Assembly: GCA_022606425.2 (NCBI GenBank)
Contig: JAHDVF020000754.1
Location: forward strand, 372,001-436,000
DNA from: Lepidostoma basale
Taxonomy: Eukaryota; Arthropoda; Insecta; Trichoptera; Lepidostomatidae
DNA: 64,000 nt
Reading direction: 5' to 3'
The position numbers were made by a program, and so were the translations under genes. Below the pieces are notes generated by a model. It did not search any database. It saw nothing but the letters and a program-made list of their open reading frames with translations, and had not been told where the DNA came from. Below, one piece after another: positions 601 through 64,000 of the stretch; position 1 is the first letter of the stretch, and every line of letters starts with the position of its first letter.

Positions 601-3600
601 CTTAACCAACTGCACAAGGGTGGAGACTATGGCACAGCGCAGCATGTTGTGTTGATCAGCATGTTCCCACAATAACGGCAAATAACGGAGCAAATCCTCC
701 GCATGCTGCGAAACCGCTTCCCCATTTCTCTCAGCAATGAAGGACAGTATGGTCAGAACATGCATCTGTAAACAAGACCTCCATTGTACCAAATAGAAGA
801 TGCATGGGACACAGAAGAATATCATGACTGGGAATCATCATACAACGGAGTGGGTTGCTGACTATGGGCAGCCACAACAACTCATACTTCAAGGAACAGG
901 AGTAGAATGTATAATAGCAAGTGGGAGAAAACATCCAGTTATGGATGTGCACCAAAAGAAGAAGAAACTAATTATTATATTATTATGAATTCATATACAA
1001 TTAATTTAAAAAATTACTTTGCTGTCACATTCATCCGCCTCCTTGAGGAGATCAAACAACAATGAAAAGGCGGGCTGCAGAAATGGGGTGAACTGCTCAG
1101 CACTGAAGTTGAAGTCGTCTATGGTCAGATTGAGGGCATCACACGCAGCAAGCCGCACGGCCGTGTCCTCATTCGGAGCCAGCAGTTCCAGCAGTGCCTG
1201 GTACAAGGTCGGCCGGAGGACACTTGATACCTTCACACCGGACCATTTGCCTGTATACATGACATATCATAGATTATTTCTTATAAATCATAACACTTTT
1301 AACGCTTAAGAATGTGTTACACGTGTAAGCTTAACTTAGAATGCTACTAGTCGAGACAACCAAGCATAACTCGGGTCATTGGAAATCGGAACGCATTTAT
1401 ATTCTTATATATTTAGTTTTATGTCAGTTGATATGTAATATTTGTGTGCATGACACTATGTATGAACGTTGAGGAGCGATTTAAGAAGTATTTTTATATT
1501 TGCGAAGTATGTCAGGAAAGAAAAGTGTGGCAGTCCATTCATTCTCCCTACCCCTTCGGGGAAACGGTGGATGGTTAGATATTTAGTTTGGTAACATGTA
1601 ATTGACCTTATTTTATTGTTTCCACGTGTTTTATTTAAGTACTTTAATCACTGTTTGTTACCCCCAAATAAATAAATAATAATAATTAGGCAAATTTGGT
1701 AGGCCATTTTCGTGAATAACTCATCTAAAGGCTGCTTTGTGTCAATGTTTTTAGCCATGAGAGCAGCTCTCAGATGGTTGTCACCACCAGCAATCAGATA
1801 ATAGTTGTTTATATTTTTTGTGATTAAAGGGCATGAAAAGATTAAATAATAGTTTATTTCTCATAATCATACTGATTTCTGACAAAATTATAATTAATCA
1901 AAGAATCGCATTAATAATAATATGGGTAAATAAAAAATGTTTATACACACCTATTAACCATGCCACTCTCCTTCTAATGACTCTAAAATTATTATCCTTT
2001 ATTTTTAATTCCTGGACTAAGCTAGTCGTAAACCATTCATCAAAATCAATCTGAAAAAAAAATGTACAACTGAAATAACAATTTTTGAATTTCAAATCAT
2101 TTATTTAGCAAAATACAACTGACATTTTTTTATACACGACAATATAAAAATGGAATAAATACAAGACACCTACCTCGTCATAAAGGTCAAACGCGGCCAA
2201 ACCCACGGCATTGTAGACAGCATCTTTGCGCAGGATAGAGGTGAGGTCCTGCGGGTCGAGAGGCTGGCGTCGCACCAGCTGCAGCAGCCGCACCAGCTCA
2301 GGCGCTAGCACCGTGCGGAACTCGTGGAACAGCGTGAGGAATACTGACTCTGTACAGGGCTGAAACACCACATTCCAATAAATGTACATCTATTTCTGAG
2401 GCGGTACAACGGTACAATTATTTACTAGTTGCAAAACAAACATAAATCCCATTGTCTTACACCATACCATCGGTTGATTAATTTGAAAAACAAAAAAAGG
2501 ACAAGATTCAAACCCAAAACCGTGTACAGTAAAAGTCCGTTAATTCGAACAACGATAATTCGTAATTCGAAATTTTCATAATTTGCTCGGTCCAAAAATT
2601 GACTTTTCATAATAAATTCTACCGTTAATTCGAAATATCGCGTATTTCGTAATTCGTATTTTTTTTCGTCAAAATGTACGTACAATTCTAATAATTCAAA
2701 TGAGACATCACGTGAGAAAGAATCCGTTTCGAGCGCATAAATACATTAGTGCAAGTGAGATATCTATATATTACGTATTTCTCTTGAAAATATCACGTGG
2801 TAAAAAAGTGCAAAGCGATAAAATGAGAACACTATTTAAAAAGGATATCTTCATTACATATATTAGGTCCTTACATATGAAATTGGCGTTTTGTATGGGA
2901 GGAACATAAAGTTGATTTTTTTTAAATATAATATAATATATTTATTTAATCAAAGTATGTACCATTCTATCTATGCACTTTTGCCATCTCATAGGTAGTT
3001 CATCGATCCCTTTACTAAAAAAACCATTCGGACGGGAATCAATAAAATCTTTGACGTCGGTTTGGACTGCCCCATCGGAGTTGAATTTTTTCCCTTGCAA
3101 GAAGTTATCCAAATTTCGAAAAAAATAGTCATCTGTTGGGGCAAGGTCCGGAGAGTACGGTGGATGTCTTAGACATTCCAATTGAAGCTCTTCTAATTTG
3201 GTAGCCGTCTGTTGTGCAGTGTGGTCTAGCGTTATCATGAAGCAGCAGTGGCCTAGAGCGATTAACCAGCCTCGGTTGTTTAGCAGCTAGCTTTTCCATC
3301 ATGGTTTGCAGTTGCTGACAATAGACATCTGCCGTAATCGTCTGGCCAGATTTAAGAAAGCTGTAGTGAACGACACCAGCACTAGTCCACCAAACGCTCA
3401 CAAGTAACTTTTTTGGAGTCAATTTTCGCTTGGGGCATGGTTTGGCTGGTTCGGCAGGGTTCAGCCATTGCGATGAGCGCTTCCGATTATCATACAGGAT
3501 CCACTTTTCATCACAGGTAATGATTCGATTCAAAATCCCTTCATTATTGTGCCGGTTGAGTAATGCAACGCAGCAGTCAACGCGCGTTTGTTGATTTGCT

Positions 3601-6600
3601 TCACTCAATTCGTGAGGTACCCACCTTTCAAGCTTTTTCACCTTCCCAATTTGCTTCAAGTGGATTAAAACAGTTTTATCACTAACACCGCAGCCTGCAG
3701 CTAACTCGGACGTGGTTTGCGATGGATCCGCTTCCACAATAGCCTTCAATTCTTCATTATCAATTTTGGTCTCCGGCCGTCCACGGGGCTTGTTCTGCAG
3801 GTCGAAATTTCCAGAACGAAAACGTTGGAACCAAAAACGCACTGTGTTTTCTTTTGCGGCACCGTCCCCATACACATCATTAATGTGGTCTGGTGCAACG
3901 GTGGAACTCGTACTCGTAAATAATGCGATATTTCAAGTTTTCCATTTTGTAAACTGAGTGACGCAAAGAAAAAAAACAATTGAGGAAAAAACAAATGAAT
4001 TATAATTTTGGAAACACAAATACTTGAGTAAATAGCTGTATAAATTTGAATTTGGAATTCCTAGCCAAAGAGAAGATATTTGAGATCAAAGTTGCCAGTA
4101 CGGCAAAACGCCAATTTCATATGTAAGGACCTAATATATTCAGCATCTTTCGTGTATCCATAATTTCTTTTCTGTAAATTAGCAATATTTCTTTGACAAA
4201 GCTTTCGGAGAAATTCCAAACCTGGACAAAGTTTTTTTTGTTGATACATTACTTTAGAATGAGTACATAAAAGGAAGAAAATTAATAAACTTAAAGAATA
4301 AAATAAAACAAAAAACATAAAAACTATATAAATACGATCGCGAATGTCAAAAGCGTAATAAATCGAGTTGAAAACCGAATGTTAACGATAGGACAAAAAC
4401 GGCTAAAATTGAAAGATGTCGGCAAATCACCACGTTGGGGGCTGTCCGTTGACCAATCGCAACGTCGCTCGCTGACTAATCACGACGGAAATAATGTGTC
4501 AAGCGTGCGTATTTTGAATATTTGCGACATACATTGCGGAAAAAAAAAGTACTCAAATATATCGGGACTGAAATAATTACACGAAAATGGCGGGAAAACG
4601 TAAAATCCGGGTTTCACTGTATTAATTTTTATATAGTTTTTTTTTATTCGTATGAGATGCCTGTCTTAAGAGGATTCTTTTAACTAATAAAAAAAGTTGA
4701 TTTTAATTTCGAAGCGCCATTAGACCCACAAAAACGACATTATGCTATCCAAACACTATTGTTATTATTATTATGAACACTTGACATTCTTATTATTATT
4801 TTGACAGATCGAAGAAATGGCCGCGATGTTCCAAGTCGCAGCAGTTGGCGCAATTTTTTTTTTTTTTTGTGAACGTAATTCGTGATTTGAATTTTTTTGG
4901 GAAATCCAGTCCCTTAAATTTCGAATTATCGGACTTTTATTGTAGTCAATAGGATGGGGATGCTCACTATTACCTACGCCGTTTGACTGGTGAAGATTCC
5001 TAATGTATAAACTACGGTGAAATTTTTTTTCTCAAAATTAGCTGGCCAATTGCGCTTTCTTACTTTGACTTTCAATGACACTTAAGGAGTACTACAATCA
5101 TGCAAAATCCCATTCCGAAGTAAATTTGCCAAGTCGAGCCCTATCCGTGTTAGTGACCCTTTCTTAATTTTACTTAAGACGTATGCATCTGCTTTACATT
5201 CCTTTCTTATTCCTACGTTTGGCATTCTGTCATGCATAATATTTTTCTTAGTGATGTCATTTCTACGGCATATATTCTACTTTCACCCTTCTTTAGCCAC
5301 CTACAAGCTTCACTTATATAAAAAAAGGTTGGCACTAGAACTCCATGAATGAACAAATAATGAGCATTGACTCACTCGGAGGCTACACTTCCAGGTCCCG
5401 CAGGTCTCATCAGTGGCGAAGCTCTCGGGGTCGGCGTCCCACAGTGCCAAGTCATCGCTCGTCAGAAGGAAGAAGTGTGTGACCAGATGGCAACACATGT
5501 GTGTCACAGTTGGCCCAGTTAGGATACTCATTTTTGTTTCGTAAGCGCGCAAAGTTGCTAAAATAATATAATTATTTATTGTTTTTTTTTTAAATTATGT
5601 AAAATTTATTCTGTATTCGCCATCAATTTATGTTGTGGATTCAAATTTAAATAATGTTTTTAATCAATTTATCTTCTATATCTGAATTGTTTTTTTTTAT
5701 TTCAGAATACTGTTAAAATTCCTACACAGAGGAAGGGCTTCTGTGTCCCAAAACATGTTTGTGAAAAGTGAAAAAAAGTTTTGTGAAAATACAAAGTTTA
5801 AAAAAGTTATTCAAAGAATGTAAAACTTCATGTTAAATAATTAATACAAATGAAAACATCTGTTTTCTAAAAGTTGTATTATATTGTATGGGAATAACAT
5901 GTTTCGCCTTGCTAATTTATATGTGAGTATCAAGTGCGTTGTTCTTTATACGAGTATACCCAAATTAAAGGAACAGTATTAAATTGAAAATAATAATACA
6001 TCATAAAAAAGAATATAAATAAAATTATCTTGTATATAATCCATAAAACATGGTGTGAATTCTACGCGATATGTACAGAACTTACCCGGATCTTTTGTCT
6101 GTTGAACCATTTTGGCAGGCTTGTACTCAGCACACAGCAGAACGGTTTTCAGGAGGTTGAGACATTGAATGGTAAATCTCTCGTAGGCAAGATGAGCCCC
6201 CTGTTCGGTGAAGCAATAGAAGGCGGCAAACTCCAATGTGGGGCCCACCAGCGGGACATAGGACACGGGGTGCGTTAGCAGGGCGCCCAGAGCTACCTTG
6301 GTCAGGTGGATGATGAACTTCTCGCACAACTCCAGCAAATAGATGCCACGACCTTTCAATAATTTCCCTACACAAACAATCAATATTTGAGCAGTAATAT
6401 CGAGGCCAAAAACATATTTTCTCAAACAATATAGTCAGAAAATGCATTTTCTCAAATTATTTTATAACTAATGTAAGTATTGATTGATAATATAATGGCC
6501 TTGTTTAAATGACATCAGAATATATAGACAGTCTGTAGGTAAATAAATGGATGCATAAAACCATTGCCACATGAGGTGATTCATTATTTAGTATAAATCA

Positions 6601-21692: not shown

Positions 21693-24600
21693 ATGGAATC
21701 TATGTATGAGACCGGTCGGATGGTCTGTTCGGAGTATATTAATCCGGTAGAATTTTTAAAAACCGCCTCGGATAATTTTATTTTTCCAAATGAACCATTT
21801 GATGGTTCCACTGTCGAAAAAAATATTAAAGATTTGATGGGTATCGACATATCTGATGAACAATTTAATCAACTTACTAAAAGTTGTTGGTTCGTATTAA
21901 TGAATAAACTTTATTTTCCATAAATATTGCACGCCTTAATTTGTTTCACATAAAATAATAGAGTATTTATTAATGTTTGAGTTACGTATTTAACCTAAAA
22001 AAATATAGTGTTCAATTTCATATGAACCGCTTAATTTGTGGTGTGACATTTTTACAAATAAATTAAACTCTTAAATACTTACTTTAAACATCAATATTTT
22101 TATTAAAGTACCGACCAGTTTCTAAGGAGTTATTTAAAATAAAGTTCAATAATGTGTAATAAATATTTAATTGTTTAATTTATTTATATGTATTGTTTCA
22201 TAATGTTTTTAGTCCACTCCAGTTGAACGGTGCTATAGATAATTGGAATCATCCTAAACATCAAATATCATCTGTATCACTGTTCAAACCCATAGAAATA
22301 ACACCTGAATCATTAATATTTAAATGTGTCCAAAAAGGAAAGGAGATGCGAGAGAGCAAAGGATATTCTTATAAAACATGGCTGAAATATAGAAGTGAAA
22401 AATTTCCAAATAATGTTGTAAGTTTCCTTCATTTCAATTAATTTTGCCCAATGTTTAAGTCAAGTAATATTACCTTTTTTTATTTGATGATATCAATGTC
22501 TCACGAGAACTGGTTAACCCACTTGGAAGGTATGAAAACCAGGTACTTTTAATGTGATCAATATTGAATCAAATGAAATCATATTGGGTGTTTTAGAAAG
22601 TTCGGTCTGTTTTTTTTGTATGAAAATCGCATTTATTTGAAAGTTAATTGAAAAAAACACATCAATCAAAATATTGTCCATCGTAAGCCACTACTTTTCC
22701 CATCTTTCTGGCAATAGAAGAATCCATCGTCGAAAAAAAACCTTGCCTTTTGAGGTAATCCAGACATTGACCAAATTCTTGACATCTGCATATAAATGGG
22801 AGTGCTACTCTTCTAAGGCTTGTGTCATGGATCTGAACAAGTGGTAGTCCGATGGTGCCACGTCTAGTGAATAAGGCGGGTGCGGTATAATCTCCCAACC
22901 TACATTTTGTATGTACTTTTTGACCGTGATTGCGATGTGAAGTCAAGCGTTGTTTTGTTAAAGAATCAGCTTGCTGTGCCCGATGCTGCATTCCAGTCAT
23001 TTTTCAGCCAGTGCCTGCTATAATGGCATTAGTTGTTGTCGGTAGACTTCCCCCGAGACCCTTTCACCCTGTTTTATGGAGTTCATTTTCGGTCAAACTA
23101 TTTTGGTCTTCCAGAGCGATCTTTGCCGTCAACGCTAAAATAATCAGCTTTGAAGCGTCTATACCATTCTCTGCATGATTTATCTGATAGGGCATGATCG
23201 CCATAAACTTTCGCATTTTATGCACCTCAGCTGCACTCTTCTTCCAATTAAAACAGAACAGCAGATCTTCCCGCAAATACTTTTTATTTACCACGAAAGT
23301 TGACATTTAAAGAAGCAATAAAACTGAACTTGATTGACAGATGCTCTGGCTTATTATAAAAAAAATGGCCGCCAGATTTGAAGGCTTGAAGCAGCCAGAG
23401 CCCTCTGTTGTAAAACCGACCGAACTTTCCGAAACACCTAAGTAATATAATTTATAATAGTAAACACGATTGTTTAGTGGTTTTACTTGGATTTAATGCA
23501 TACAAATTGTGACAAATTTGTTTCGCCTTGTGAGGGCATTCTCAAACGGATGTCTTGCAATTCAGGTTTGAGAATGCCCTCACAAGGCGAAACAAATTTG
23601 TCACAATTTATATAATTTACATACATTAAATCCAAGTAAAACCACTTAAAAATTGTGTTTACTATTATAAATTAATAATGGAGTTTTACAAAACTAATAC
23701 CTCAACCATCAATTACCTAATATAATAATCACCAAAAACAAAAACACTTTTCAAAACTAATACAAGGAATCTCTTAACCCATCGGCTTACGAGACCTGCT
23801 TCAGTACAAAACATGAACAATTATGTTTTTCTGGTAAGTTGATGGGTTAACTTAACACAAATTCTAAATATGTTGATGAACCATAAATGTGTGACAATGC
23901 AATCTTGTAATTATTTTAAGCACACATTTATCTAAGAATATATATATATATATATATATTTTTATCTACTTTAAATTCTTTTCTGATTTATATAATGTCA
24001 AATAATTTTCATTATCCTAAAATGTATTTGTATTCATTATCCTTATTGATTATCTTCCTGCTGATATTGAATGCAGACTGGAGTTTATTAGTTTGATGTA
24101 TTGGAATGTTGGCGATATATGTAGTTTTACGATATTTGATTTAACTTAATTTTATCCAACCAATTATGATTATTAACCCCTTATTGGATAATTTAAACTT
24201 GTATATATTGCTATGAAACTGTCATAACAGAAATGTTTTGTTGTATTGAAATATGAAATCGAAATTTTCAACTTCCATCCATTAACTCAGGTACTCTGAT
24301 AAATTTCAGTTTCTTATATCTGAGTTGTTACATATTTCAGTGCGTTAGTACTATTTCTTGAGTGATGTCTTGCACTCTTCCATACAAGCGATTAATGGTG
24401 AAGTTTATTAGTAAATTTTTAAGTTGGTTTCAGGCCGTTTCTGATGAACCCCCAAATTTAGTGCCAGGAAAAGAGATTCTGATTCGAATACGGGTCTACC
24501 ATCCATTTAACTATGTTGTAAGTATCCTATTTCATCATACAAAGATTACCCAGCAACTAGCTCATACTTACAAAAGACATAAACAGTTTCATGTATCTCG

Positions 24601-27044: not shown

Positions 27045-27088
27045 ATTAACAATTGGTTTCGCTTCAAGTGGAGCTTCATCAGGGTAAT
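27045..27088 (-). ncRNA. hammerhead-ribozyme-like motif
   Basis: On the minus strand: stem I strand ATTACC, CTGATGA (27082-27076), stem II GCTCC/GAAGC with one mismatch, GAAA (27060-27057), then CCAATT. GTTAAT can pair back to ATTACC with one mismatch. The self-complementary box is CCAA instead of CCGG, so stem III is damaged. Same family as 54794-54924. Confidence 0.55.
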
Positions 27089-27850: not shown

Positions 27851-27930
27851 ATAACCACGGTATGGTAGTTATATTTGAAGTCAACTAGTTTCGTTTGTAC
27901 CTGAGCTTCATTAGGATAATTTAAAATCTT
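27851..27930 (-). ncRNA. hammerhead-like motif, degenerate
   Basis: Minus strand: CTAATGA (27914-27908), AGCTC..AAAC, GAAA (27892-27889), CTAGTT. The flank at 27852-27875 (ATAACCACGGTATGG) is the complement of the flank at 63658-63680, making the two loci one family. The core change CTGATGA to CTAATGA should abolish activity. Confidence 0.5.
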
Positions 27931-28245: not shown

Positions 28246-28515
28246 TTCATATCGCACCGTGAGTGTAAAACCGACGTAAGTCCAAATATACACTTTGGGG
28301 ATATGGGAGTTTAAAGATTTCATATTGCTTGGAAAAACTGTTATTTTTAAATAAACCAATAATTTTCAGTTTATAGGTATATACCTATAAACCGAAAATC
28401 ATTGGTTTATTTAAAAAAAATAGTTTATCCAAGCAATATGAAACCTTTAAACTCCCATATCTCCAAAATGTATATTTGCACTTACGTCGGTTTTACACTC
28501 ACGGTGCGATATGAA
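28246..28515. repeat. 270-bp palindrome without a spacer
   Basis: The sequence from TTCATATCGCACCGTGAGTG at 28246 mirrors itself around TATAGGTAT/ATACCTATA at 28380-28381, ending at 28515. Arms are about 135 nt with few mismatches and no loop. No coding potential. Confidence 0.9.
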
Positions 28516-29089: not shown

Positions 29090-29126
29090 AGATATTTGAT
29101 AATGCCTTATAAAGGCGAAACATGTC
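29090..29126 (+). ncRNA. hammerhead-like motif with intact stem II
   Basis: TTGATAA in place of CTGATGA at 29096-29102, a perfect stem II GCCTT-ATA-AAGGC (29104-29116), GAAA (29117-29120), then self-complementary CATG and TC. Stem I is weak. It probably derives from an active motif. Confidence 0.5.
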
Positions 29127-29215
29127 ATTCCCATAAATTATAATAAAACTTGTAGAACTGATGTTTGCATTCATATTTAATATGGAGTTTTACATCATTG
29201 TTCAAGAAACAATAA

Positions 29216-29834: not shown

Positions 29835-29958
29835 TAGAAAATCCATTGTTTTGGCGGAATCACTATGGTATTTCAGAATTATTAATGATTTAATTTGTAA
29901 ATTAATAAATTGTCGCCACAGCTGTTTCGCCAAATAATGTTGGCATCATCAGGTGTTA
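29835..29958 (-). ncRNA. short repeat with hammerhead-like motif
   Basis: Minus strand: CTGATGA (29952-29946), perfect stem II GCCAA-CATTAT-TTGGC, GAAA (29928-29925), self-complementary CAGCTG (29924-29919), then TG where a TH is required. The core boxes are intact but the cleavage position is G. The flank AATCCATTGTTTTGGCGGAA at 29843 recurs at 43433 and 55190, defining a family. Confidence 0.6.
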
Positions 29959-43145: not shown

Positions 43146-43430
43146 TTGAAATATTAAAATGAGGTTCAGATGAGATCATTATTATTATTTTGTTATCAGT
43201 TCGGAGCGTGGCGGGGGCGACAGGATTTCCGTATTTTGTCAGCACGTTCATGTCACTAGCGTCTCGTACAAGAGTGTGGATGTTTGGCGTGCGAGTGTGA
43301 TTTACGAATCAAAGGAATGTTTATAATTATATTGAAGACTGGTTTTACAGTCCTTCAAAGTGCACATTATGTATGCGTTCTACCCGATTCAACAAACACG
43401 CGAAAATATATTTAACTATTTAAATTTAGT
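43146..43430. other. short intergenic spacer
   Basis: 43200-43300 is GC-richer. Nothing recognised. Confidence 0.3.
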
Positions 43431-43687
43431 AGTCCATTGTTTTGGCCGAAACACTATGATATTTTAACATTTCATAACTGTTAATTCAAAAACTTTGTTT
43501 TATATTTACTTTATTTTCTCCTATAAACAGTAACTAACCGTTCTTTAAATAAAAATATTTAGGTACCTAACTCAATTTCGGCAAGAACTTCAAAATTATA
43601 TCAAAGAAATTATTCAAATTGACCCAGGAACAAATACACAAAGATTCCAAAAATTACGAAATTTTGACATTTGATATATATTTTTAT

Positions 43688-43730
43688 AACACCTGATGAT
43701 GTAAGCATTGGTTGGTGAAACAGCTGTCGT
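43688..43730 (+). ncRNA. hammerhead-like motif
   Basis: CTGATGA (43693-43699), a weak stem II, GAAA (43717-43720), self-complementary CAGCTG, then TC, the correct cleavage pair. Stem I has only GT/AC. Core intact but stems eroded. Confidence 0.5.
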
Positions 43731-43839
43731 AAAGTAAAATAAATACAATTTGTGATATAAAACAAAGTTTTTGAATTAACAGTTATAATATATTTCAATT
43801 TAAAAAACTCTGTTCTAAATATCATAATTGATTATATTT

Positions 43840-43885
43840 TGTCATGACAGCAGTTTCGCTAACCGATCTTAGCATCGCCAGTTCT
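43840..43885 (-). ncRNA. hammerhead-like motif, degenerate core
   Basis: CTGGCGA (43881-43875), stem II GCTAA/GTTAGC, GAAA (43857-43854), CTGCTGTC. The CTGATGA box carries a substitution expected to inactivate it. Confidence 0.45.
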
Positions 43886-44079
43886 TACAATCAACTATAT
43901 TTAATAAGAAAACGTTGTAATTTTCAATTAATTTTGAATGCGATGATTATATATTTTTAAACATATTTTGCATTTACATAAAAAAGCAAATTAATGATTT
44001 TTGCAAACTTCTATTTTTATTTTCAGTGTTGTAATCAACAATTCTTTAAAGATATTTTATTACACTCGTGTACTCTGTG

Positions 44080-44402
44080 TTTACACCACTTTATTTGATT
44101 TGATCGAACCAACCGGTTTCGCTCCCGCCGGAGTTTCGTTGGGGGTACAAAAACAAATAGTTGAAGCTCCGACAAGAGCAAAACGGTTAGTTCCATAAAA
44201 CAGAATAAAGCGATTTTTAGATTTTAGTTAAACTTAAGACGTTAACACTATGGAATTCCATAATGATGAATTTTTTACACAGGTTTTTTCCACTTTTGAG
44301 TTTTTTTTTCTCGACGTGTTTCGAAGGCTTTAAACCTTCATTATCTTTACTTTTATACATTATTGTTAATAATGCCGTACCACAAATGAAGTGCTTCATA
44401 CG
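44080..44402. repeat. hammerhead-family element split by a second short repeat
   Basis: 44105-44135 and 44160-44197 are the two arms of a diverged copy of the 54794-54924 palindrome. The conserved box AAGTGCTTCATACGA is at 44389. Between them, 44217-44350 belongs to another family (TTAACACTATGGAATTCCAT, shared with 53590-53610). It carries a minus-strand core: TCATTAT, stem II GAAGG/CCTTC, GAAA at 44322-44319. Confidence 0.65.
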
Positions 44403-44870
44403 AATGGACAATATTCTTTATTAAAATTGTACGGATTAACACTCGAGCTTTTGTTTCACTCGATATTTAGTAAGTAAAGGAGTTGTCCCAATTCCTAGGT
44501 GGGTGAGTGCCCATGGAAAAGAATGCAATGTTTGTTATAGGTGAACCTTCACGCTCTAATTCACATAAATTCAATGAATCTTAAGAGGTTCAATAATGGG
44601 CTTCTCCTTTACTGTATTATGCAATTATGCTAAGTGGTCGTGGTTGATATGAAGAGAGACTTCCATGTTTTCGTTTTGCTTGTTTGCAAGAATAATTTAT
44701 CCCAAAAACAGCAGTTTTCGCAAAATAACACTAACAGTATTGTATTATTTTAAATAAAATTCTCAAGCACTCGGCTACGAGCACATGGATTATGTACAAT
44801 GTTTTGGTTGAGTATAAAATCAATATCACTCTGTCCCTGAAATAAGCCTTCTTAATTTTTTTGGTGTTTT
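44403..44870. other. AT-rich spacer
   Basis: No coding signal or recognised repeat. Confidence 0.35.
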
Positions 44871-46910: not shown

Positions 46911-47400
46911 GTGAGTGCTTTCTCGCCACATTGATATACTGGAGAATGTTACTGGGATAGCTTACCCTTGTCTTTTGCAGAAAAGTTTACTACTAGTGAT
47001 TAAATGATTAAAAGAGGTACTTATTTATCAGTTAATTTATTATTATATAATAGAATTATCAATATAACTATCAATATACATATTGATTAGTATATAATAT
47101 AAGTAGAAAACAAAAATGAAACCGGTATGTGATATAAGAATAACTTTTTGAAAACATTATATTTTCACAACACTTTTTTTGCACTTTTCACAAACATGTT
47201 TTGGAACACAGAAGCGCTTCTTCAGTGCAGAAATTTTGACTTATTAAATATTATACTTTTAGATTGATCGAAATAATTTTATATACTTCTACCGATGAAT
47301 TTAAAATAAATAAACTCATGTTAGTTTAAAAAAATCTAAGTTTTATTAAATTCTATATTTACAGGAATAATTAGGTTTATAAAAAGTATAATGTTGGTTT
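46911..47400. other. spacer/intron with eroded short repeat
   Basis: 47165-47230 carries AAACATGTTTTGGAACACAG and CTTCTTCAGTGCAG, an eroded hammerhead-family copy (minus strand) related to 5725-5770 and 57950-58060. No coding signal. Confidence 0.45.
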
Positions 47401-50858: not shown

Positions 50859-51704
50859 AATGTGATATGTATAAGTCATTTGGACCAAAAACTCAATTAG
50901 GCCATTATGGGTTCTTAGATACAGATGTTTTTATATATATATTTTTATGTATATTAAACATAATGACAAAATGCATATTTTGTGAATGCAGCGATAATAT
51001 GCATGTATACTCGTACGGTGTCTGCTTATCCCACTTATAAGCGCAATCAATATGAAATATTATGCATGCATATATTATACTGAATGTACTTAATGCGTCT
51101 GATGCAACAGTCATTGTTGAAGCATTCCGACGGGGGAGTACCTACCGCATAAGGAAAGCTGTTCATTCGATTGTCAAACTGTTGTTTAGCATATTGCAAG
51201 GGAGATTATTGATTAATCTAACACGGATCACAGTGGGAAATATTATTTTTAGCTCGGACACTCATTCATATTATACAGCATTATAACAAATCCGTTCTGG
51301 TAGAGCCAACAATGACATCAGCGTTTTTTATCTGTAGAGAACAAATATACGGCCGAAGAAATTCAAGACAAGTAAAGAAATACATATTTTTTATTGATCA
51401 TTTTCCAAGTACCTAGTTTTCATATCTCTCAACGAGGATAATACTTTCTTTCTAGTGAGACATTTTTTACATTATAAGATTATTAAAATATGTCACGTTG
51501 TCTTTGGTCTGGAAAAATTCATGTAACAGTAAAAATCGCGATACTAGCTACCTATCACATGGCATGAGAATCAAAAGCTTAAAAAAATGTGTACAGAAAT
51601 TTGGTTCAATTAACCTGTTGTATATAATAATATTTAAAGCAACGGGAAACTGTCTCATTAAAGTAGCATCCCAAGGACCAGAAAAGATGTTAGATTAATT
51701 TATA
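50859..51704. other. AT-rich spacer
   Basis: No protein or repeat family recognised. Open frames here are short and compositional. Confidence 0.3.
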
Positions 51705-51895
51705 ATAGTAAATACGATTGTTTAGTGGTTTTACTGGGATTTAATTTATATAAATGATATAAATAGTGACAAATTTGTTTCGCATTGCGAGGGAAATCTC
51801 AAACTGACATGCCAAGGCGAAACAAATTTGACACTATTAATATAATTTATATTATTAAATCCAAGTTAAAGCCTTAAACAATCTTGTTTTATATT
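51705..51895. repeat. inverted-repeat element related to 23462-23660
   Basis: Shares TTTAGTGGTTTTAC, GACAAATTTGTTTCGC and AAGGCGAAACAAATTTG with the SNAPC3-intron palindrome, with the arms again in opposite orientation. The arms have diverged from each other more than in the other copy. Confidence 0.75.
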
Positions 51896-52189
51896 ATAAA
51901 TTAATAATGGAGTTAGACTTTGCTGCACATAATTCCCAAAGATTGAACTTGAATTAATTTTTTTATATTCTTTATCACACTTTTATATCGACACATGAAT
52001 TCTGTTTTAATCACAATTTAAACATTTTTTAAATTATTATGCAGTTATGACATTTTTTTTTACCTCGAAATTAATTTTGCTTTTTGTATTTGTCTATTGT
52101 TAATTTATATGTCGTGTATTATTATTAGGATAACGATTGTGAATAAGTCTAAAGTAAAGATTTTCGAAAAATAATAAATTGTGACAGTC

Positions 52190-52745: not shown

Positions 52746-53580
52746 TGAGTGATCTAATTGAAAAATAAATTCGATAACAATTCGGAGAAATGAAATGATG
52801 AAATGAAAGCTACAGGTATATGTTTGGATATTGGATAGCCCTATCTTTTTTTACCTCTGTAATCGAATAACAACCAAAACTTCTAGCTGTTAATAGTACT
52901 CATGAAGCATCTGCCTACTCACACGTATATAACGCGTCTTGACTTAAATGCACTTTACCGACCTGTCGTTAAAGAAATTTAAATCATTGTACAGATATGA
53001 TTAATGTTTAATAGGATAAATATCCGATAAAAGGATCGAACTTTCGATAAAAGGATCATTTCACGAGTATATCTCTCTGCCAGTATTCTTGTCACGTGTC
53101 AAGAGGAATAATGTGAATTAAATCTTCAATCACGTCTCTGGTTTTGTTGATTTTGTTGATCATGGGTTCCAAAACTTATTGTGTCTACTGTATCAGTTTC
53201 GGGATAGTTGTGCGTCATCGTTAAACGAAAAAGCAAAAAAATAAATGTCTCCATTTCAATATTTAAAATTGTAAAATAATTGGTACACATGTTCACATGT
53301 AAAATAATTGGTACACATGGTACACTGGTTCAATTTAGCCAATGCACCCGAAAATAAAAAACTTTCTCGTTATCGATAGACTTGGTCGGTTACAACCTGC
53401 AATTAGTTGTGTTGTTTTTATAATGTAACACCCTTCAATCAGTTTATTTAACATTCAGCATTATTTTTGTACTAGTAGGTTTTGAATTGTTTTGTACTAA
53501 TAGGTTTTTAATTTTTGATTTATTTTACTTTTTTCCAAAAAAGGCCTCCAATGATGATACTTTTACCAACTTATTGAAAG
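52746..53580. other. AT-rich spacer
   Basis: A direct 30-nt duplication (TAAAATAATTGGTACACATG) occurs at 53272 and 53300. Otherwise nothing. Confidence 0.4.
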
Positions 53581-53584
53581 TTAA

Positions 53585-53760
53585 GACATTAACACTGTGG
53601 AGTTCCATAGTAATATACTTTGGGAATTAAAAAAACTTGGTTTTAATAAATTTTTAACAAAAAAATATTAAAATACACGACATGTTTCGGAGGATACCTC
53701 CATCTTCAGGTGTAAAAATATAACAAAAACTAAACAAAGAAAGACTAATAAAAACGCATT
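53585..53760 (-). repeat. short repeat carrying a complete hammerhead
   Basis: The flank TTAACACTGTGGAGTTCCAT at 53588 recurs near 44240. The ribozyme motif is listed separately. The unit has no coding capacity. Confidence 0.6.
53674..53714 (-). ncRNA. hammerhead ribozyme motif, complete
   Basis: Minus strand, 5' to 3': TACAC (stem I), CTGAAGA (53709-53703), T, GGAGG-TAT-CCTCC (stem II), GAAA (53688-53685), self-complementary CATG (stem III), T, C (predicted cleavage after 53679), GTGTA (stem I partner, five perfect pairs). All invariant core residues of the hammerhead are present. Stem III has no loop and could only form between two copies or as a minimal stem, as described for Penelope-like elements and retrozymes. 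Whether it cleaves is not shown. Confidence 0.8.
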
Positions 53761-54790
53761 TAAAATTCGATACAATAAATCAAATTTAAAAATTAACCTG
53801 GGCTATTTGTTATAAGTAGGTACTAACAATTATTTTTTAACAGTAAGAAATAATAAATAATATTAAATAATAATAATACATGATGATAATATAATTTAGA
53901 AAAATTTGTAATTTAGAAAAACATATATTTGAAAAGACATAATTTATATAGAAATTAATAAATGATTAATTTGCATTTGATTGGGAATGGGAGCTTGGGA
54001 GATTAAATGTAGACAAAGTATTTAAGGAGAAAGGAGTAAAAGGAGGATGTTAATATTTTATTTATTTAAAAGTGGTTTAAACAAAGTTTTTTTAATTTCC
54101 AAAGTATAATACTTTTACCCACTAAAACATTCAGACGCCCACACGCGGGAACTACGTACTTTTGGTATTTGGATATTAAATGATAAAAAAAAACTATAAC
54201 ACTGTTTTTTATACTTTTGAGTTATGTCACTCCCGAAAAATATATCAAAACTTCTAGAAAATGGACGAAGTTCGACTTCATTGTTCTAGAAATAATAAGT
54301 AAACACTGTTGAGGCGTTAAATTAAACATATGTGAAATTTGTAAAGTTCGAAAATTATTATGATTGTAGCGCACGTATTAAAGCTACTATCAATTGATCA
54401 ACCCTGATTCTGTATTATCATATTATAAATCTTGTTGAGCTAATTCGAGAACAATATCTTGTTGTGGGTATTACATAGTTGAGGTAGCTTGGAGCGACCA
54501 CCCGGAGAGGAGTATTCTACCACAAACCTGATGTGTTTGCGCGGGTGTGGTTAGATATTATACCACTAAACATATTTTTTATTCTTAATTAATTGCTGTC
54601 TAGTTCGTTAAGCGATTAAAAACTATATTCAGTAGCCAATAATACGAAATAAAAGAGTTCAGATTTTTTTTATATACTAACATAAAATTTCCTTCGATTT
54701 GAATATTTAAATTTGTATGTATCCGTATATAATTATAAATGATTAAATATTAAATAAAATAATAATACATTTTTAGTAAATTGTATTAAC
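53715..54790. other. AT-rich spacer
   Basis: 54470-54560 is less AT-rich. No feature recognised. Confidence 0.3.
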
Positions 54791-54807
54791 AATACTTTAT
54801 TTGGTAA

Positions 54808-54847
54808 CACCAACCGGTTTCGCTCCCGCCGGAGCTTCGTCAGGGTG
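54808..54847 (-). ncRNA. hammerhead ribozyme motif (left arm)
   Basis: Minus strand: CACC, CTGACGA (54843-54837), A, GCTCC-GGCG-GGAGC, GAAA (54821-54818), CCGG, TT, GGTG. Stem I of four pairs, stem II of five, self-complementary stem III box. Confidence 0.75.
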
Positions 54848-54870
54848 AGAGAATAAACTGTTTAGTCTCT

Positions 54871-54910
54871 CACCCTGACGAAGCTCCGGCGGGAGCGAAA
54901 CCGGTTGGTG
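54871..54910 (+). ncRNA. hammerhead ribozyme motif (right arm)
   Basis: Plus strand mirror of the left arm: CACC, CTGACGA (54875-54881), A, GCTCC-GGCG-GGAGC, GAAA (54897-54900), CCGG, T, T (predicted cleavage after 54906), GGTG. In a single transcript the long hairpin of the inverted dimer would compete with this fold. Confidence 0.75.
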
Positions 54911-55221
54911 TTACCGAATAAAGTGGTGTTAATACAATTGTTTAAAAGTGTATTATTATTTTATTTAATAATGTCACCATAAATTAGGTGCTTCATACGA
55001 AAGATTAAATATTACAATGAAATTTACTGGTAAAATTATTTACTAGACATTCAGATTCAATGCAATGTTATTTAGTATTAGACAATAGATTAATATTTGT
55101 TTGTGAATTTTCAATTATGCATAATATGTAAAATTATTAATTTTTGGATACATGACATACATTATTACATATATTTTTATTAGATAATCCATTGTTTTGG
55201 TGGAAACACTTTGATATTTCT

Positions 55222-56290
55222 TCTTCTTCTTCTTTTAATATATCTGACGATCTGTGACACAGAAATCATATCTCGTCGGATGATGAGATCCAGCTGTCCC
55301 TCCATCTCTTAGGCGGTCTTCCAGGTGGGCGGTGTCCGGAGGGGATTTTGTAAGCGGCTGTAAATGCAAGTCTGTCACCATCCATTCGGGCTACATGGTC
55401 TCTCCAGTATCTTCTTCTGGATCTACTGAACGATATCCTCTATTTCGCAAGTTTTTCTTATGTCTACGTTGCGGACACGATCTCGTTTTTTTTCTTCAGT
55501 AATTGATCTTAGGACCTTCATCTCCGATGTTCTAAGTAGTCCCTTGGTTCGCACATTGTCAGCCCGCGTCTCTACAGCGTATGTCATGATAGGTCTCACC
55601 CATGTTTTATAAATTCTGATCTTGCTGTCGACACGCATGTGCTTGTTCTTCCAGACCAGATTCTTCAGACATCCTGACACGGCAGAGACTTTACTGACTT
55701 GTTCAGGTACTTCGGTATAATGGTCATTTTGGCTGCAGATCTCTACTCCCAAATATCTGATACTCATTACTTGCTCCACAGGTATATCATCAACAGTCAG
55801 CTTACATCTTGTAGGTTGCTTAGATATAGTGAGACTTTTTGTTTTGTTGACTGATATAGTCATATTTAACCTTTGTGATACTGTGCGGAATTTGTACAAC
55901 ATTCTTTGCAGGTCATCTTCAGACTCTGCTATTAATGCGGCATCGTCTGCATAGCAAATGACGTTCACAGTTTTACCCAGTCCCAAGCCAGCTACCTCTT
56001 CTATGATTTCGTCCATAATAAGATTGAACAGAAAGGGGCTCAAACTATCTCCCTGTCTTATACCATTGCTTGCAGGAATTTCCCTATACAGTTCATCGTC
56101 AACCTTAATTTTCGTTTAGCAATTGGTATACAGATCTTGGACAATCTTTATCAATGTATTGGATATTCCTCCTTCCTGTAATTTTCTTACAATATCCCTT
56201 AGCAACACCCTGTCAAATACCTTAGTCAGATCGACAAAACATATATAGGCTACTTTATTATATTCAATTGCCTTCTCTTTCAGTTGCCTC
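55222..56290 (-). mobile_element. LINE RT fragment, AAG-tailed
   Basis: The best preserved reverse transcriptase piece. Minus-strand frame 56043-55423 (206 residues) begins MSPFLFNLIMDEIIEEVAG, has the catalytic CYADDAALIAES box, SIRYLGVEI, KNKHMRVDSKIRIYKTWVRP and KGLLRTSEMKVLRSI. The tail continues with RDHVARMDG and PGRPPKRW-like segments to a (GAA)n run at about 55222-55236. Upstream frames to 56290 (KVFDRVLLRDIVRK-like) are broken. 5'-truncated. Confidence 0.88.
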
Positions 56291-58079
56291 AGAATGAAGA
56301 TTTCATCTGCTGTGGAGCAATTTCACGTAGACAAAGATGTAAATTGTTTTCTGGAAACAGAATATGGTGGTCGAGGCGCTTACAGGACTTATGACCTGTC
56401 ATTGGTTGGGTTAAGCGATCGCTTTATGTTAACAACATTTCCCATTCCGCCTTTCTTACGACCACCACGTATGACAAATTTTTGGAAGATGTGTATATGC
56501 TATAATGTTGAGGAACACTTCACATTTTTTATTGTAGTTCAATCTACACTAGCGCCATCCATTAAGATTAGGTGTAAGCATTAAGCAGAAAATCTTTATT
56601 AATGCAATGTGAAAGGCTATGCAGTAATTGTACAGTGCTAGATAATGCCTTATAAAAAAATAATTTACCCGCAATGGGTACAATCCAGTATTTGTCTACA
56701 AGTATTTGTATACATTCAAAATATTATCATGAAATTGTTTAGATAACGATTAGTCCCGAGTTTATAGAAATCTATTTTGTAGAATAATTATGTAAATAAT
56801 TCTCGAGGGCTTCATTACAATGTGACTAATTCAATCTTGGTCAGATATTCTGAGCGAGGTACACGTCCCAGTGACAGGTCACGCCGATTATCTTACTCTA
56901 ATCTCCTTATCGCGGTCTATCGGCCCAACACGGCCACGGAGTTAATACTGCAAGGACGGCCACGGTCATTTTGACCGCTTATTTTGTGCATTTTTAAGAA
57001 CATCAATAATGTACTAATTAATTAAATAGTATGTGTTGTGACGCTTGTAATACCTATTAATACTTCGATATTTGAGATGCCAGTGTTATAGTAAGCGTCT
57101 TGTTATTATATGGTAAGGAACTTATTCATATTATTTATGCTTCGTGTAAAGTAAGATTTGCATAGAAGATTTAGTGTTTTTTTTTGTATTTTTAGGGTCC
57201 AATTGCTTTCTAAAAGAATTAATTTATATACGAAGGTTTTGATATCATCATTTGTTTAAAGTTCCGACCTGTTCCGGTAGCAAGACATTTAATATAATTA
57301 AAAATAAATATTTCGAAGCAACTTTAGAACTTTGGTACGGTTTAGTAAAGATATTATAAAATCCTAACAGTTGTTATTTGGTGTTTCTTAAACAATGATG
57401 TAAAACTCCCCTTTGAATGATTAAGTTTTCATTCTTATTAATTATCGTAAAGTTGTTATTTGTGCAGTGTGTGACATATTGTATTTTCACGGCCGGACTC
57501 AAGCGCGTGGTTACGACAATAAAACTATTACCCGCTATTAGTTGAACGTGGACACGCGTGGGTTAACTGGCAGACGGTGTCAACTTATTAACTCCAGTGA
57601 TGGATACGTCTGAGCATGACAGTTGTCAAAATTAATTGTGTTAGTCAGCTCATAACAATACATTTTTATTTTACTAAGGCCACGAACAGACCATTACCGA
57701 TTTAGATGGGCCAGCCTATACACAAAATGACGTGGAATGATGGATTACCGTGTCTACAAGTATCTGCAGTATTAAATTATGATTTTGTTCCTTAAATATA
57801 AGTACTTAAGGGATGATTTCAAACAATAATCCAAATTAATGGTGGGATATGGTTTTTCCACGAACAACGTGTTCAGAATATTTTTTATACTTTGTTAAAT
57901 AGTATTTAGTATCAGAATATCATACCAATTATAATAGAATACCACATTGTATTTTCACAACACTTTATTTTTCAATTTGCAGACAAGTTTTGGTTGTGAA
58001 CTAACCTTCTTCGACGCACAAATATTTAGGTTAAAATTTTTGAATCGAAGAAGGTTGCGTCACAATTGAAACATGTCTT
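56291..58079. other. intergenic region
   Basis: Mostly featureless. A GC-richer patch is at 56860-56970 and another at 57485-57620. 57390-57420 and 57950-58060 belong to the dispersed short-repeat class (AATGATGTAAAACTC, AGACAAGTTTTGG..CTTCTTCG). No gene recognised. Confidence 0.4.
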
Positions 58080-61045: not shown

Positions 61046-62415
61046 TTAAAATATGATAAAAGTTATTTAAATGGGACATTTTCTTCAATATTTATTATAA
61101 AATTGTTCAATATCACGTAATTTAAAAAATATTTAAAAATATTTTATTTTAACTTATTAGGTACCTACGTGTAATGCGCCAATGGTGATACTAATATCTA
61201 AAGAGACTGAATGCTTGATTTCTGATTTAATAGTTAATGAGTTAGATCTTGGACACCTACAAAAAAGTAAATACGTATGTTTTTAAGAAGTTTTATTATA
61301 TTTTATGTATGCCATGCTTCGTCTGCCTAAGGCATTATCCAATGTATGCACGTCTCATAAAATACTCGTATAATAAAACTTCTAGAAAACAGGCGTTTTG
61401 ATTCGTATTAAATATTTAATGTGGATATCCAAGAAACAATAAATAAATCAATAAAGTTAAATAGAAATATATTGTTAGTTTTTAACTATCTGTGTTTTCT
61501 ATCAAACCATAAGCTGCGTTTCGCAAGTGAATAAAATCAATTATTATTTTGTTTAATTTTTAAGAATAATAACGACATACTAGTTGCTCGTATAGTTATT
61601 GACAAAATACAATACAAACTAAATTCTATGTTATATGAGGTATTTTTTAGGAATTATTTTTAATAACTTTATCATAAGCTTTCTTTGACTTTGAGCAACA
61701 ATTAAAGCTTGTATGTCATGAACATCGCTGCATAAAACCTTACACCAATAACACAAAACAATGAACATATAAAAATGTATAATGTAATAAGCATAAATTT
61801 GTAAACGAGATAAGCCATTTATCTCTTATGCGTGTCACTCTTATGCTCATCAGTTCATCTCACGGTGAGTGCATCTCCTCTTGCGCAAGTACGCTGATAC
61901 GTGTAGTCAATGAATGCGCTGCGCACGGTGGCGACCGTTTACATATTAAGCTTACACACAAGTTTGAACATTCCTAGGCGCGTTCGAAATACAGACTTCC
62001 ATTGTTTTCAATGTGCATATTGTCTGTTGCATTTGAATATCGAATATTAGCATAATTACTGACGACTTTGATACTGAAAGTGTTCAAAATGTTGTTACTC
62101 GAAAGTGCAATGCTGACATTTTATCTTAATGCCTTGAATGCATACAGATACATTATTCAACTACTTGTAAATATTTGAAGCCGGTTTCACCTTTTAAATT
62201 ATTATAACTATTAATTACAACAATGAGCATCCATAATAATGTATTTTCCCTTCTTTCTGTCATAATATGGCAAACAGTTAAAGGAAACACATTCTAAAAT
62301 TAATTATTATGACATAAACTAATATCTAATGTTGTTATTTGAAATTTCATGATAGGTAGGTAATGAATATAAAAAATGTATTTAAAAAAATGTCTTTAGT
62401 TCAAATCCAATTATG
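61046..62415. other. AT-rich spacer
   Basis: 61300-61400 holds a fragment of the short-repeat class (GGCATTATCC). No coding signal. Confidence 0.35.
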
Positions 62416-62510
62416 TTTGTGGTTTCGACCGTTTTCGGTAGCTTGCTGCCAACTTCTGGTTATGGACAGCGAGCTGCTGAAACCGGTCGAAGCCATAAAC
62501 ATAAGTGGAA
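62410..62510. repeat. inverted repeat of the hammerhead-flank type
   Basis: TATGTTTGTGGTTTCGACCG (62414) is mirrored by the complement of CGGTCGAAGCCATAAACATA near 62484-62503, with arms of about 40 nt. GAAACCGGT is present but no CTGANGA box. Confidence 0.65.
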
Positions 62511-62739
62511 TTTAACTAATATAGTACATTAAACGCTTTTTTCTTCATTATTTATAAACTAATACAGTTTTTACAAATCTCATTAGCACTTCAATCTGTG
62601 TCGTGAATTTATATAAGGATAACATTAGAATTTGTACGAGTTAAATAGAGCATTATATTATTTTTTATATCAATGTTTGAGATAAATAAATAACGGGTAA
62701 CCGATTTAGATGAAATGATAATTTTAAGGTTACACCCAA

Positions 62740-63015: not shown

Positions 63016-63580
63016 TAAACAATTTCCTCAGCGTATTTTATTTATTTAAAAACTCACAAACACCAGTGCAAGAGTTTGTGATATATTTTGGATGCATTCC
63101 ACGACTTCCAAACATAGATATTCATTATCGTTAAATCCGTGAACAGTTAATTGATTTTTAACCTTTGAAATATTTAAAAATGAAAAAGCTCATTCTAACT
63201 TTACAAAGCTCTCTGCGCCAGATTAATTGTGTTGAAAACTTGATAGCCGCGGGATGCGTGTACAAAGATAATTTATTGAATAATATTTCAGTAGAAATCT
63301 AGATATAATAAACATTGTATGGGAATGTGCATTCAACACCTTGGGTCTCAGATAGGTTTATCTCTCCGCTATTAATTATCTGCTTTAGCAGCGGGATGCT
63401 GCAACTGTGATAATAGGAAGTCGTGACTTTATCTTTATATATTATTTGTGTTGCATTCTTGTTAACGGAATCTTAGAAAAAGTAATTTCTTAACGAAGTG
63501 ATCGCTCGTAAAACATGACCATTCGAATTCCGATAGGTTTTAGGTAAAAATTTCTTTAAAAAATATAAAATAATCATAAT
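63016..63580. other. AT-rich spacer
   Basis: No feature recognised. Confidence 0.3.
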
Positions 63581-63611
63581 CAGGGCAACATAATATAACT
63601 AGTTGTTATAC

Positions 63612-63651
63612 TGCCCTGATGAAGCTCGGGTCCAAGCGAAACTAGTTAGCA
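63612..63651 (+). ncRNA. hammerhead-ribozyme-like motif
   Basis: TGCC, CTGATGA (63616-63622), A, stem II GCT/AGC closing CGGGTCCA, GAAA (63638-63641), self-complementary CTAG, TT, AGCA. Stem I has GCA/TGC with a first-position mismatch. An inverted ATCAGGGCA at 63578 mirrors TGCCCTGAT. The 3' box appears as AGTTAGTGTTTAATATG at 63731. Confidence 0.65.
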
Positions 63652-64000
63652 TCAATTATAATAACCATACCGTGGTTAAATACAAAATTATTTTTTATTA
63701 TTTTATATTTTTTTAAATACCTAACCATAAAGTTAGTGTTTAATATGAAAAAAATATTACTTTTTTAAACAGTTATAAGGTCATAGAAAAATATATGAGG
63801 CTCCTGATATGCATCAAAAAGTTAGTACGAGAAACATATTTGTTTTGTTTAAATCACTGGGCGCTGTTATTATATTTTGAACGTCGCTAATGCTTTTAGA
63901 ATCTCCATTAAGATTATTAGGGGTCTTTTGTTAAATTGATATGATATATTCTAACAGTGAAAATGATTGAAGCGTGTGCTTAACTCTTTAGTAACGAAGT

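Follow-up and report, generated by a model that had tools for sequence, protein, structure and literature searches.

Head-to-head pLTR-like arms, each with a minimal hammerhead motif, in a likely non-autonomous Penelope-like insertion

The 64,000-nucleotide stretch of DNA analysed here, called the window below, carries open reading frames that we take to resemble mariner, LINE and importin proteins, and our reading of it as insect DNA rests on these. One of them, a 267-aa open frame at 3129-3932 (-), resembles a mariner transposase. At 54753-55002 lies a compact palindromic element with two unequal arms: a shorter, inverted pLTR-like arm at 54753-54858 (-), and a longer pLTR-like arm that runs up to its ATG at 54860-54970 (+). 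The arms meet at position 54859, a single nucleotide within the inner sequence TAAACTGTTTA. Only the right arm continues into an ATG-started extension of 32 nt (54971-55002, +), which ends in GTGCTTCATACGAA. The element is bracketed by two copies of GATTAAATATTA, a 12-bp target-site duplication (TSD), at 54741-54752 and 55003-55014. Relatives of the longer arm occur at 44041-44169 and 63580-63760, and the block AATAAAGTGGTGTTAA on the 3′ side of its hammerhead (54917-54932, +) recurs, by eye and with at most one difference, at the loci 44150 and 27058(-).

At its full extent, the inverted repeat covers 54748-54970, with arms of 111 nt each (54748-54858 and 54860-54970) that are 93% complementary across a 1-nt spacer. 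Between 54753-54858 and 54860-54965, 98 of 106 positions are complementary. An earlier note, made from the sequence alone, had described a near-perfect palindrome at 54794-54924 with arms of 59 nt; its position holds, and the arms prove to be 111 nt long. The junction itself reads TAAAC-T-GTTTA. All eight arm-to-arm differences fall outside the hammerhead, and a difference-free stretch of its 40 nt has p = 0.019 under random placing; the value for a 50-nt difference-free block is p = 0.005, with the block picked post hoc once the alignment was known. In sequence terms, this clustering hints at constraint or at arm-to-arm conversion, neither of them proven.

Hammerhead motifs were sought with a strict descriptor that follows the hammerhead consensus (stem I, CTGANGA, stem II, GAA, A..T stem III, H17). 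It finds exactly three sites in the window, at 53674-53714 (-), 54808-54847 (-) and 54871-54910 (+), and none in eight Markov-shuffled windows. The site at 54808-54847 (-) reads as a minimal type I hammerhead, cacc CTGACGA agctccggcgggagc GAA accggt T ggtg, and its counterpart at 54871-54910 (+) is identical to it letter for letter. The motif is of the minimal kind because stem III is the self-complementary hexamer ACCGGT, that is, a single A-U pair around the palindromic tetraloop CCGG. Both hammerheads face away from the junction, so the arms stand head to head. The claim of one hammerhead on each strand is borne out by the descriptor at both places, with cleavage as a prediction. If the canonical H17 position applies, as we assume, the left hammerhead (-) would be cut between 54812 and 54811 and the right one (+) between 54906 and 54907. 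Two strict-descriptor hammerheads within one element are found in the window only here.

No hammerhead family is reported by Rfam for the window or for the single arms at E values up to 10. The assignment therefore depends on the descriptor together with the pairing seen in several copies. The same run gave 11 matches, none of which reaches its gathering score, and these look mostly like by-products of the long hairpin. Pairing was scored over nine hammerhead copies with stem letters entered by hand; the set excluded the left hammerhead, which has the same letters, and the copies at 27915, 44342, 44165, 23448 and 51694. Standard pairs occupy 41 of 45 cells in stem II (27.3 with partners dealt randomly; 0 of 5000 deals reach 41) and 24 of 36 cells in stem I (16.3 with random partners; 5 of 5000 reach 24), support that is partly circular because stem II is a criterion of the hammerhead-like scan and stem I influenced the stem III length chosen there.

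Predicted folding sets the ribozymes against the palindrome that contains them. The whole element folds as one hairpin of -168.6 kcal/mol (z -25.7), compared with -51.0 kcal/mol for its two halves taken separately, and on this ground RNA that runs through both arms should lock into the hairpin or into double-stranded RNA, lose both ribozymes and escape self-cleavage. These predicted folds support the competition between hairpin and ribozyme that the earlier note had proposed. A transcript that starts inside one arm could, on the same modelling, keep its own ribozyme and cleave itself. The single-arm fold of -15.5 kcal/mol does contain stems I and II, but its minimum pairs the core CUG with the CGG of stem III. 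Its stability is no better than that of shuffles (z -0.01 and -0.63), and the hammerhead fold without stem III reaches -13.0, compared with -15.8 for the minimum. Separate from the question of origin, such folds lend some colour to the view, which we consider rather unlikely, that the hammerhead-like sequence has no catalytic role and that the palindrome is kept for its hairpin or by arm-to-arm gene conversion. This view is helped by the preference for the hairpin in a spanning transcript (more than 100 kcal/mol), by the pairing of core letters in the single-arm minimum and by the Rfam result, and has to contend with core positions that are all intact at three sites in 64 kb, when eight shuffles give none, and with stem I pairing that exceeds shuffles across a partly circular set of copies.

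The limits of the insertion are marked by the 12-bp direct repeat, identical at 12 of 12 positions and directly abutting the left arm on one side and the end of the right-arm extension on the other. Its score is equalled by 0.6% of 1000 random placements and by 0.2% of 2000 placements with narrow zones; a check for target-site duplications at the ends, which the earlier note had recommended, accordingly turned up a perfect one. Position 54753 pairs with 54965 and the right arm reaches 55002, which makes the right arm 37 nt longer than the left; the ATG-started extension accounts for the last 32 of these 37 nt. Its ATG, a candidate PLE (Penelope-like element) ORF start, lies 64 nt after the predicted cleavage site and opens a frame that reads ATG TCA CCA TAA. 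The window holds the terminal GTGCTTCATACGAA at two places, 54988 and 44391-44404, and it is here that the two copies cease to be closely similar. Beyond the 12-bp duplication there is a weak inverted similarity (extension score 12, matched by 1.3% of 150 AT-rich controls), which counts against an insertion model because such a model does not predict it.

A second insertion of the same plan lies at 53557-54123 (-). Its TSD (53557-53571 and 54109-54123) matches at 14 of 15 bp, 11 of them in a perfect run, and is reached by 0.9% of 1000 random placements. Like the first, it has an ATG-started extension on one side only, here 37 nt at 53572-53608 (-), which resembles the extension at 44261(-). 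Its arms, at 53609-53674 and 54047-54113, are identical at 56 of 67 positions. One hammerhead is intact at 53674-53714 (-), and that of the partner arm has, by eye, been deleted.

Further hammerhead-like loci were collected by looser scans of the window. A core-pattern scan gave 24 matches compared with 3.62 expected, of which those that looked hammerhead-like by eye were retained. A mismatch scan gave nine rows with at most one mismatch, 32674(+) being left out, and 26 rows with at most two; of the latter, 23522, 23568, 29096 and 44118 were used additionally and 58045(+) was left out. A two-mismatch row is no evidence by itself, since the eight shuffled windows yielded between 7 and 16 such rows apiece. 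The motifs at 27915(-) and 44342(-) were added by eye.

For 14 hammerhead or hammerhead-like sites, an inverted upstream partner was scored against 100 shuffles each. Eight sites, which belong to six loci, beat all of their shuffles (54875, 54843, 53709, 44142, 43693, 63616, 23568 and 23545). At the other six the partner is not significant, with the score reached by 1 of 100 shuffles at 29952, 14 at 29096, 48 at 27082, 73 at 27915, 78 at 44342 and 90 at 43881. Together with the palindrome at 51694-51905, the six significant loci bring the head-to-head arrangement to 7 of 13 loci, in a hand-picked set from this window; 23448-23674 and 51694-51905 had been noticed because they are palindromes. 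At three of the seven (53709, 43693 and 63616) the significant match sits in the arm, outside the hammerhead. The earlier note had named one outcome as fatal to its reading, that other copies are all direct tandem units; within the window this is not what is seen.

The five remaining head-to-head loci differ in their state of preservation. A decayed insertion at 43405-43795, centred near 43630, has a hammerhead-like motif (+) at 43693; its best flanking repeat is 9 bp (43405-43413 and 43787-43795) and comes from a second choice of zones, the first having scored 8, and 4.9% of random placements score at least 9. A decayed pair of the same subfamily as the 54860 element occupies approximately 44041-44222, with relics at 44118-44142 (-) and, by eye, at about 44165-44200 (+). 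A related palindrome at about 23448-23674 has a hammerhead-like motif with the core TTGAGAA in both arms, and a more decayed palindrome of its subfamily (79% over 213 columns) lies at about 51694-51905. At 63555-63760 (+), a hammerhead-like motif (+) at 63616 follows a short, internally deleted inverted partner (19/20 in an AT-rich stretch). The best flanking repeats of these five loci measure 9, 9, 9, 8 and 7 bp. The TSDs and extensions of 23448-23674 and 51694-51905 (9- and 8-bp repeats) were rejected as proven features, as the two extensions share only the 8 nt ATGGAGTT.

Several other features of the window deserve a record of their own. A TTGAGAA or TTGATAA core takes the place of CTGANGA at 23522-23545 (-), 23568-23591 (+) and 29096-29119 (+), which amounts to two loci only because the first two are the arms of one palindrome. 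These motifs, all of them rows at the two-mismatch level, keep stem II, GAAAC and C17 and have a weak stem I (2 of 4 pairs). Their cores presumably represent C3 to U plus G8 to A, a double change by which the C3-G8 Watson-Crick pair would be retained as U-A. The segments 29182-29215 (+) and 27538-27505 (-) have in common a 34-nt ATG-started stretch, ATGGAGTTTTACATCATTRTTCAAGAAACAATAA, with one difference, and diverge immediately after it; on sequence grounds this abrupt divergence is as expected for insertions with fixed 3′ ends. The 22-nt motif CCATTGTTTTGGYSGAAACACT stands at 55189-55210, 43434-43455 and 29843-29864 (+), with none expected from 100 shuffles. Read on the minus strand, the motif runs into the ATG of another extension subfamily, and the copy at 55189 apparently adjoins, by eye, the 3′ end of a LINE. 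Beside the 43405-43795 insertion, the segment 43796-43924 holds a minus-strand hammerhead relic (43881), which forms with it a tail-to-tail palindrome centred at 43787. The palindromes at 28246-28515 and 62291-62620 are 93% and 64% identical to their reverse complements and have no hammerhead-like row in the mismatch scan; they are probably other element families. Another palindrome, at 57981-58078 (73%), contains the two-mismatch row 58045(+) and stands outside all counts. Finally, 5712-5812 (+) and 47138-47240 (-) form an 87% repeat, in which 47186-47225 (-) reads CTGAAGAAGCGCTTCTGTGTTCCAAAACATGTTTGTG and resembles a hammerhead with a broken GAA.

Taken together, the anatomy of the locus makes it likely that 54753-55002 is a 250-bp non-autonomous PLE insertion, in which two unequal pLTRs lie head to head between 12-bp TSDs and each bears a minimal type I hammerhead. 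The apparent oddity would then probably be a known PLE arrangement in which each strand comes to carry a hammerhead. Published PLEs have an inverted pLTR that stands beside a direct one and is 37 bp shorter, pLTRs that take in the first 12 ORF codons, optionally with a 31-bp tail beyond, and TSDs of 9 and 10 bp at preferentially simple, AT-rich targets; palindromes at their head-to-head junctions have been read as signs of self-priming (PMC3846280). PLE pLTRs are also described as carrying minimal type I hammerheads (PMC7761336). The present element has head-to-head inverted arms with a palindromic junction, a short TSD flush with its ends, and a minimal type I hammerhead that is found by the descriptor, is negative in Rfam and has predicted activity. 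Its longer arm reaches a candidate ORF start, with a 37-nt difference that includes the ATG and an end common to 44391-44404. The 32-nt extension may correspond either to the published tail or to the part missing from the published inverted pLTR. The 250-bp copy contains no PLE gene for a telomerase-like reverse transcriptase or GIY-YIG, and a crude motif scan of all six frames of the window gave no credible PLE protein, its one match being SLFTN at 5771(-) in a stop-interrupted stretch. The open frame at 55423-56115 was not accepted as a PLE partner, as it looks by eye like a LINE reverse transcriptase.

A plausible route to such an insertion can be sketched. The element's protein would cut an AT-rich target, and reverse transcription would begin near the end of the ATG extension and proceed leftwards through the pLTR, past the hammerhead. 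At TAAAC-T-GTTTA the growing cDNA end may fold back on itself or switch to an opposite-sense template, whereupon the pLTR would be copied again in inverse, giving the inverted arm. The free end would then join the other side of the staggered cut and leave the target-site duplication. Arkhipova et al. favour an antisense template for the inverted pLTR (PMC3846280); cDNA fold-back on a sense template would yield the same head-to-head product. Since the predicted cleavage site is 47 nt downstream of the junction, the RNA copied into the insertion would not have been cut at this hammerhead. In related work, the tail ends of genomic insertions are reported to coincide with internal sites at which reverse transcription starts, and mutating the hammerhead had no effect on insertion in vitro (PMC11167929).

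The earlier note had regarded an inverted dimer as unusual because known retrozymes are mostly direct repeats, and the same element can be read as a metazoan retrozyme, that is, a non-autonomous unit of 170-400 nt with type I hammerheads and circular-RNA mobility, in which the inverted dimer arose by rearrangement. Size and hammerhead type fit, and retrozyme-like repeats with type I hammerheads are on record in insects (PMC7229834). Amphibian retrozyme hammerheads even have the same stem III, with its A-U pair and palindromic tetraloop CCGG (PMC7229834), so this stem cannot separate the two readings. We nevertheless hold a retrozyme unlikely. Retrozymes are described as tandem repeats, the word 'inverted' being absent from the main text (PMC7229834), whereas no hammerhead-bearing direct repeat is found within 53500-56500, and the 7 of 13 hand-picked loci that are head to head do not follow a same-direction tandem plan. 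The unequal arms, one-arm ATG extension, short TSD and palindromic junction are those of published PLEs, and for this reason we prefer the PLE-type reading and find the retrozyme frame of the earlier note unsupported.

A palindrome flanked by a direct repeat could also come from a MITE or foldback DNA transposon that has a hammerhead in its long terminal inverted repeats by chance, and the window does hold palindromes in which the mismatch scan lists no row (28246-28515 and 62291-62620). Used as controls, however, those two lack a direct repeat of comparable quality, with scores of 5 and 7, and the ends of the element are not mirror images, with an extension on one arm only both here and at 53557-54123. 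The TSD also varies in length (12 bp in this copy and 15 bp at 53557-54123, the two that are best defined), and we judge this origin very improbable. Long palindromes are prone to misassembly, but an assembly or library artefact at the hairpin is very unlikely, since 8 of 106 sites differ between the arms, the ends are flush with a 12-bp duplication and related loci of different age have the same plan.

If the PLE reading is right, the arrangement becomes a readable record of how PLEs may insert, with arm ends, junction and duplication defined at base level and related copies of differing age within 64 kb. A copied RNA that escaped cutting at the hammerhead would be relevant to the unsettled role of PLE hammerheads, and the element offers a clean test case for when a palindrome silences its own ribozymes. 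A more speculative idea, to which we give little credence, is that an ORF-less lineage has made the head-to-head hammerhead dimer its unit of spread, a 'foldback retrozyme' with sense RNA from either strand. Its ends would be capable of cleaving themselves if transcription began within an arm, and would be locked as a hairpin by read-through, and self-priming would be part of its life cycle and no accident.

Among the matches listed from the open-licence PubMed Central literature, no description of two back-to-back hammerheads in inverted pLTRs was found; we do not claim that the arrangement is unpublished. Two pattern scans of viral contigs matched nine contigs, seven of them (L001-L007) through two short strings of the first pattern and two (L008 and L009) through a CTGANGA..GAAAC string, and none showed back-to-back hammerheads by eye in the matching string and the 70 bases flanking it on each side. 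A phage collection gave no match to the element. Viroid-like RNAs likewise have a hammerhead in each polarity (PMC9608096). There, as the published account has it, both strands of one RNA are processed, whereas here two copies of one motif lie in inverted DNA, and no sign of RNA replication was seen for the 54753-55002 element. The metazoan (non-LTR) retrozymes of Cervera and de la Pena (2020, PMC7229834) are similarly small, AT-rich and non-autonomous, with a type I hammerhead, but are presented there as tandem repeats, in contrast to the inverted, unequal arms and ATG extension seen here.

Closer parallels come from PLEs. The minimal PLE hammerheads described in PMC7761336 share the type I order, a stem III of few self-complementary bases and the pLTR location; the text places them in tandem, whereas two intact copies stand back to back on opposite strands here. 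Poseidon of Anolis, as portrayed in PMC11167929, likewise has its hammerhead in the pLTR, close to where the ORF starts, and genomic ends at internal reverse-transcription start sites. Its ORF begins at stem II and is cut 26 bp after the start codon, and its copies are described in tandem; here the ATG comes 64 nt after the cut and the copies are inverted. For Pen2a_Av of Adineta vaga and its relatives (Arkhipova et al. 2013, PMC3846280), the main text contains no mention of hammerheads and otherwise describes much of the same architecture. In these PLEs the TSD is 9 or 10 bp (12 bp here), an ORF lies between the pLTRs (here the inverted pair alone is left) and a 31-bp tail is added onto the full pLTR (here there is one extension, be it the tail or the 37-bp difference). 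In both, pLTRs stand head to head around a palindromic junction between short TSDs in an AT-rich target, the inverted copy is shorter by 37 bp, and the ORF start, or here an ATG, lies near the end of the pLTR.
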